Shown here piece by piece: positions 5,918 through 46,455 of a DNA stretch of 61,154 bases. This DNA is from Campylobacteraceae bacterium (GTDB lineage: Bacteria; Campylobacterota; Campylobacteria; Campylobacterales; Sulfurovaceae), in assembly GCA_027068975.1 (NCBI GenBank), contig JALXFN010000059.1, positions 1 through 61,154 of the forward strand. The letters run 5' to 3'. Each line of letters opens with the position of its first letter. Positions within the stretch are counted from its first letter, which is position 1. Made by a program: the position numbers and the translations under genes. The notes beneath the pieces are model-generated. The model was not told where the DNA came from. It did not search any database and saw only the letters and a program-made list of their open reading frames with translations.

Positions 5918-5981
5918 GTTTTAGGGGCATGGACTTTAGTCCATGAAATAGATAATAGCGACTAAAGTCACTGCCCCAAAA
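5918..5981. repeat. REPIN-like double palindrome, family A copy 1
   Basis: Two inverted units are joined by a short spacer: TTAGGGGCATGGACTTTAGT then ACTAAAGTCACTGCCCC. Each carries a GACTTTAGTC core palindrome. A copy differing at only about three positions lies at 44829-44893, and a single-palindrome relative is at 34706-34735. The near-identity of distant intergenic copies indicates a mobile or recently spread repeat. Confidence 0.8.
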
Positions 5982-34705: not shown

Positions 34706-34735
34706 TAGGGGAATGGACTTTAGTCCATACCCCTA
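34706..34735. repeat. REP-like single palindrome, family A relative
   Basis: A near-perfect palindrome, TAGGGG-A-ATGGACTTTAGTCCAT-A-CCCCTA, using the same core as the REPINs at 5918 and 44829 but as a single unit. It is followed by TATAAT at 34748-34753, a possible -10 for the nuclease gene. Confidence 0.75.
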
Positions 34736-44702: not shown

Positions 44703-44788
44703 TAAATAAACAATAGGACACTAATCTGATTAATACCGATACCCACAATCTAAACTTTATCTATTCACAATTTTAAGATAGACTTTCT

Positions 44789-44927
44789 GGCATCCTTCAT
44801 AGGAAGTTTACACTTTTGCATATTGAGTGTTTTAGGGGCATGGACTTTAGTCCATGAAATAGACAACAGCGACTAAAGTCACTGCCCCTAAAATGTCAAC
44901 TACTTTTAGCTAGTTATGAAGGATGCC
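44789..44927. mobile_element. MITE-like element with 8-bp target duplication, carrying a REPIN
   Basis: Perfect 13-bp terminal inverted repeats GGCATCCTTCATA (44789-44801) and TATGAAGGATGCC (44915-44927). Direct repeats GACTTTCT flank both sides (44781-44788 and 44928-44935), as expected for target-site duplication on insertion. The core holds no ORF but contains the family-A REPIN at 44829-44893. An 8-bp duplication is typical of IS1595, ISL3 and similar families; the parent element is not in the window. Confidence 0.85.
44829..44893. repeat. REPIN-like double palindrome, family A copy 2
   Basis: Near-identical to the copy at 5918-5981: about three differences over 64 bp. It lies within the MITE-like element, so the REPIN inserted into the MITE or travels with it. 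Confidence 0.8.
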
Positions 44928-44953
44928 GACTTTCTCATTAAACAAAGGACGAC

Positions 44954-45927: not shown

Positions 45928-46455
45928 ATGGAACAGCAAACTAAACGCTCATCATTTATAAATGTCTTTGCATGGATTTCTATTATCTTTAGTGGATTTG
46001 GTATCTTAATAGGTATTATGCAAAATGTTATGATGCAAACAGTTATGAAAGATGCCCACTTTGAACAACTCACAAAAGATGAAAACATACCACCTCTTAT
46101 GAAGATTATGTTTGAAAACTTTGATATTTTAGTAATGGGAACTCTACTTATAACTATTGTGGTATTTATAGCCTCTATTGGTTTACTAAAACGGAAAAAT
46201 TGGGCAAGACTCTTTTTTATTGTTTTCTTGATTTTAGGGGTTATTTGGACGGTTGTTGGTGGAGTTATGCAGTTTTCATTTATGGACTCTATGATGATAG
46301 GTCAGAACATGCCACAAGATGCACCTCCTGAGTTTCAAAGTATGCAAAATACAATGAAAATAGTATCAGCTGTTATGATGGTTGCTATGGTAGGACTCTA
46401 TTTATATTTGATTAAACGTTTACGTTCTGATGAGATAAAAAATGAGTTTGTATGA
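45928..46455 (+). CDS. Small integral membrane protein, unknown
   Basis: 175 residues with four TM helices (about 11-30, 62-82, 88-115, 142-165). Met-rich loops (MIGQNMPQDAPPEFQSMQNTMK). No family recognised. Driven by palindromic promoter copy 4. The next lipoprotein gene overlaps it by 4 nt, so they form a two-gene unit. Confidence 0.6.
   Translation: MEQQTKRSSFINVFAWISIIFSGFGILIGIMQNVMMQTVMKDAHFEQLTKDENIPPLMKIMFENFDILVMGTLLITIVVFIASIGLLKRKNWARLFFIVFLILGVIWTVVGGVMQFSFMDSMMIGQNMPQDAPPEFQSMQNTMKIVSAVMMVAMVGLYLYLIKRLRSDEIKNEFV

Follow-up and report, generated by a model that had tools for sequence, protein, structure and literature searches.

Bacterial MITEs such as NEMIS, RUP, Nezha and MITEAba12 are short, non-coding elements with inverted ends that duplicate their target and have their ends in common with a transposase-bearing element. 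The element described here is likewise short and non-coding, has inverted ends and duplicates its target, and its long-arm end resembles the ends of transposase-bearing relatives, but its interior is a host REPIN and not a remnant of the parent element, and a REPIN passenger is described for none of these MITEs in the papers that we found. BrickBuilt, a MITE of Porphyromonas gingivalis, carries a minisatellite, another repeat class, as internal cargo (PMC4596501). It is likewise a MITE with repeat cargo, but this cargo is a tandem repeat and, unlike a REPIN, has no putative transposase of its own (PMC4596501). REPINs are inverse pairs of REP hairpins that occur dispersed in many copies, and the associated RAYT gene has matching REPs on either side (PMC3116915). 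The same traits are found here, with the differences that the window copy lies within a MITE with 8-bp duplications and that the REPs begin with TTTTAGGGGC and lack the classical 5' GTAG tag, for which reason we call the unit REPIN-like. The spread of REPINs has been described as unresolved, and movement driven by RAYTs has been proposed (PMC3116915). ISPpu9 is also an insertion element associated with REP sequences, but it uses the REP as its insertion target, whereas here the REPIN is cargo between the ends (PMC8450116). In the full-text literature searched, a body that leaves most subscription journals outside its coverage, we found no earlier account of a MITE that encloses a REPIN, and the minisatellite in a MITE is the nearest precedent (PMC4596501). 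The apparent novelty lies in the combination, which recurs with two REPIN families across the genus; each part is of an already known kind.

The window is a stretch of 61,154 nucleotides from a Campylobacteraceae bacterium (contig JALXFN010000059.1), whose genome of 2.78 Mb in 146 contigs is referred to as G000. It contains a 139-bp element (44789-44927) with perfect 13-bp terminal inverted repeats (TIRs) and a perfect 8-bp duplication, GACTTTCT (Table 1). A preliminary description of the locus had reported a MITE with an 8-bp target duplication, perfect inverted ends and an internal REPIN near-identical to one elsewhere in the window, all of which proved correct, with 8 bp being the duplication length across the family. 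The element is non-coding, being overlapped by no open reading frame (ORF) of 80 or more amino acids, and the Rfam search of the window gave no match. The exact 13-mer GGCATCCTTCATA occurs in the window just twice, at the two ends of the element; allowing up to two mismatches, there are 4 occurrences against 1.4 expected. The one-mismatch occurrence at 46044-46056 was dismissed as a chance match because it sits within an ORF and has no partner. The internal unit consists of two inversely oriented REP hairpins, as is characteristic of REPINs, and is enclosed by a 23-bp inverted repeat (arms 44830-44852 and 44871-44893). Folded as single-stranded DNA, the element reached z = -7.8, and no shuffle folded equally well. 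A lone GACTTTAGTC half-REP lies at 34716-34725 of the window.

Table 1. Features of the MITE, its REPIN-like passenger and related units in the window
Feature	Position	Strand	Basis or remark
Left target-site duplication, GACTTTCT	44781..44788	.	Read from the sequence and from comparison of duplications in the family
Left terminal inverted repeat, GGCATCCTTCATA	44789..44801	+	13 bp, perfect
MITE short arm (TIR and subterminal GGAAGTTTACACTTTTGCATATTGAGTGTTTTA)	44789..44834	+	Comparison of family copies
Type-A REPIN-like unit, two inverse REP hairpins, GGGGC...GCCCC	44835..44888	.	
REP hairpin 1, CATGGACTTTAGTCCATG	44839..44856	+	
REP hairpin 2, CAGCGACTAAAGTCACTG	44867..44884	-	
MITE long arm	44889..44927	-	End resembles 3' end of transposase-bearing relatives, 28-31/36 identical
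Right terminal inverted repeat, inverted GGCATCCTTCATA	44915..44927	-	
Right target-site duplication, GACTTTCT	44928..44935	.	
Second type-A REPIN	5924..5977	.	52/54 identical to the unit at 44835; no TIR or duplication
Neighboring lipoprotein-like ORF, 290 aa	44954..45826	+	Starts 18 bp past the right duplication, outside the element

A query consisting of the short arm only, free of REPIN letters, gave 46 matches, which lay in 10 of the 34 genomes examined from the same genus, and the reversed control gave 0. The further copies that the preliminary description had proposed to look for are thus present in the genome of the window and in nine others. In G000, a second full copy on contig C45 is 95% identical and carries the duplication CAATTTGA/CAATTTGG; this insertion is found at the identical site in G032. 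Contigs C48 and C135 each carry a partial copy at one end, and the genome also has several remnants. Full copies were also present in G032 and G033, the latter having many. At the end of C48 and the start of C135 (L004 and L003), type-A MITE sequence stands between inverted CAATGCCAATGACTTAAG repeats; the MITE has apparently inserted there within another palindromic repeat, and the assembly breaks at that point. One MITE of G033 has its short arm and half of its REPIN in three tandem repeats (L111, contig C15, 543-852).

Both flanks were available for 22 full-size elements. The 8-bp duplication was perfect in 11 of them and had one mismatch in 4 more (15/22 with at most one), while random re-pairing of flanks gave means of 0.49 and 0.68, respectively. 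When duplication lengths from 4 to 12 were tested, the signal appeared at 8 bp alone. The duplicated target is AT-rich, and 7 of the 22 elements had no clear duplication.

Empty sites were found in relatives. For a G033 copy (C184, duplication GTATAATC), G032 has an uninterrupted single site on C94, and the same empty site, with one base changed (CTATAATC), is present on C4 of G000. Two other G033 copies, on C81 and C164, correspond to uninterrupted loci in G030 (C23 and C143, respectively) with some target substitutions. The family therefore has the fixed-length duplication, the many dispersed copies and, for copies of relatives, the empty sites of a MITE. The preliminary description had anticipated empty sites with a single target; this held for three copies in a relative and not for the window copy, for which none was found among the genomes compared because the locus is not syntenic in them (G026:C120 has just the downstream gene in common). 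The window copy, taken alone, would be compatible with ends and duplication that arose by chance or as a hairpin artefact, with no transposition at all. This explanation is refuted at the level of the family by the duplication statistics, with their signal at length 8 alone, and by the empty sites of other copies in a multi-copy family, and we give it practically no weight.

The cargo of the element is constant. A REPIN of type A or type B, or REPIN-derived sequence, was present in all 22 full-size elements; among short-arm matches that have both ends, the REPIN is missing from just one, an extreme deletion derivative of 43 bp with almost no interior (L132, G017:C82, 64707). Type A occurs in G000, G032 and G033. 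In G028 and G003, type B (GGAACCGATGGCTTTAGCCTCG...CGGGACTAAAGTCTCCGATTCC) lies within MITEs whose arms are homologous, and decayed copies of this kind are present in G029, G023 and G026. The two types have the core GACTTTAGTC in common and lie at the same position between the MITE arms. They may represent separate captures or may have diverged inside an ancestral MITE, and the data fit either history. In G003, near-identical 271-bp copies, most of them with perfect duplications, occur at many sites, pointing to a recent burst. The palindrome CAATGCCAATGAATTAA was observed in loops of type-B REPINs, whether these are free or carried by a MITE (L106, L191 and L232 in G003, L125 in G031). In the type-B REPIN loop of G003, the palindrome itself surrounds a GTAG-type REP pair (CTGTAGGTTCGATTTCATCGAAC), so that repeats are nested at three levels.

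The occupation of one position by both REPIN families, and the opposite orientation of the type-B REPIN in G003 and G028, would be expected if a RAYT had inserted REPINs separately into existing MITEs, the two moving independently and being associated by target preference. However, a search that set no requirement for a REPIN gave no full-size element devoid of REPIN-derived sequence, and the flip in G003 can be accounted for by recombination between the inverted arms. Moreover, type-A REPINs borne by MITEs are on average 95% identical to each other, whereas free ones average 84% and comparisons of MITE-borne with free ones 86%, which argues that the REPIN is inherited and travels with the MITE. 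We therefore consider repeated separate insertion unlikely; the REPIN may originally have been captured in a single RAYT insertion.

A type-A RAYT gene was identified on contig C101 of G000 (Y1_Tnp, 2.6e-12) with type-A REPs on both sides, and a near-identical gene on C205 of G033. Many copies and a RAYT flanked by matching REPs are thus found for type A, as for described REPINs. A cognate RAYT was also sought for type B, and none of the RAYT loci examined has type-B REPs alongside. The type-A RAYT and REP arrays of G000 lie beside a cluster resembling a diversity-generating retroelement (L104, C101, 2288-10393), which comprises a reverse transcriptase (RVT_1, 6e-31), a bAvd protein (9e-21), a caspase-like protein and two FGE-sulfatase proteins whose C-termini are similar; its genes are separated by REP arrays.

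Judged from match coordinates and flanks, by our own reading and with C48/C135 counted as one locus, MITE arm sequence is kept at 7 of the 19 dispersed type-A loci in G000 (the window, C45, C48/C135, C102, C49, C11:65793 and C143), so the element has contributed to the dispersal of REPINs. C115 and the unit at 5924 of the window are possible further cases. From its sequence, the latter is probably a MITE remnant, since its 54-bp length, its spacer and the upstream TGAATGTTTTA resemble a MITE sublineage. These loci could also be taken to mean that the hairpin is simply the MITE's own interior and that all free REPINs are decayed MITEs, with no separate REPIN system. This is very improbable, because the RAYT gene is flanked by type-A REP arrays without MITE arms, and because free type-B REPINs occur in about 20 genomes, the majority of them without any match to the short arm.

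Transposase sequences adjoin ends that match the MITE long arm. In G028, an element on C44 bounded by GGTATCCTTCATA and GGCATCCTTCATA encloses a transposase remnant, and the right end of this element agrees with the long arm at 30 of 36 positions; among 100,000 shuffles of this end, none agreed at more than 22. In G046 (C99), the C-terminus of a transposase is closely followed by an end that matches at 31/36, and a further transposase remnant in G028 (C149) adjoins an end that matches at 28/36. For the autonomous parent that the preliminary description had proposed to look for, the search thus gave transposase remnants at matching ends in two other genomes, and no intact element having precisely the ends of the MITE was found in the genomes searched. 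Two protein queries detected no transposase homologue in G000. The longest transposase ORF, 410 aa on C367 of G003, is cut by the contig end and is followed by a variant end, GGCATGTCTCCTA. A MITE on C181 of the same genome ends in the near-identical GGCATATCTCCTA and is flanked by a perfect duplication, GTTTTATA.

Elements of the ISL3 family make 8-bp duplications and have ends that start with GG. The present elements resemble ISL3 in both traits and give weak profile matches to ISL3 and IS256/Mutator, but the scores of the 410-aa transposase are below the curated cut-offs (ISL3, 17.2 bits, cut-off 180; Transposase_mut, 16.2 bits, cut-off 21). We therefore regard the parent as a Mutator/ISL3-like DDE transposase that falls in no curated family. 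The AlphaFold model of the 410-aa protein had a mean pLDDT of 48 and was set aside, and neither the transposase nor the RAYT matched anything when searched by sequence against the PDB. Other origins were also considered. An IS1595 parent was rejected, as PF12762 is absent from G000 and no such ends were recognized around the G030 copy. Carriage by a phage was dismissed, since the 16-bp end pattern matched only unrelated sequence in viral contigs and no transposase relative was found there. Carriage by a plasmid was dismissed as well, the plasmid search giving distant Acaryochloris homologues only.

The preliminary description had suggested a transposable carrier of REPINs, and the further copies, the empty sites in relatives and the transposase remnants at matching ends support this proposal. 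With a probability of roughly 85%, we conclude that the element is a non-autonomous MITE with a fixed REPIN-like passenger that is moved in trans by a DDE transposase. Its 13-bp ends and the approximately 36-bp long arm would correspond to the 3' end of a transposase-encoding, Mutator/ISL3-related element, whose DDE-type enzyme would mobilize the MITE and in doing so duplicate an AT-rich target of 8 bp. The interior would be a pair of REP hairpins drawn from a host population linked to the RAYT, a Y1 tyrosine transposase. As the REPIN is a fixed passenger, each transposition of the MITE would place it at a new intergenic site with no need for the RAYT. Some copies may later have shed their arms to become ordinary-looking REPINs, which is how bare units such as that at 5924 could have arisen. 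A REPIN within the MITE may still be recognized by the RAYT. Since every full-size copy found in the genus contains a REPIN, a repeat that ordinarily relies on another enzyme, one selfish element appears to spread another.

More speculatively, the REPINs of this genus may be passengers of two systems. The MITEs would have recruited REPINs from two or more families of the host and spread these through DDE transposition. At their new sites, the REPINs would still serve as RAYT substrates or keep a cellular role, so that the transposon would continually replenish a population of domesticated repeats. We put this forward as a tentative idea that is more likely wrong than right.

A well-understood kind of transposition has left clear marks around these REPINs, in the form of fixed inverted ends, 8-bp duplications and empty sites. 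As these are marks of a separate system, a RAYT need not be required in every case for REPINs to disperse, and such hitchhiking can inflate estimates of REPIN duplication rates. The MITE and its REPIN together offer a testable system in which a single repeat may move by two routes.
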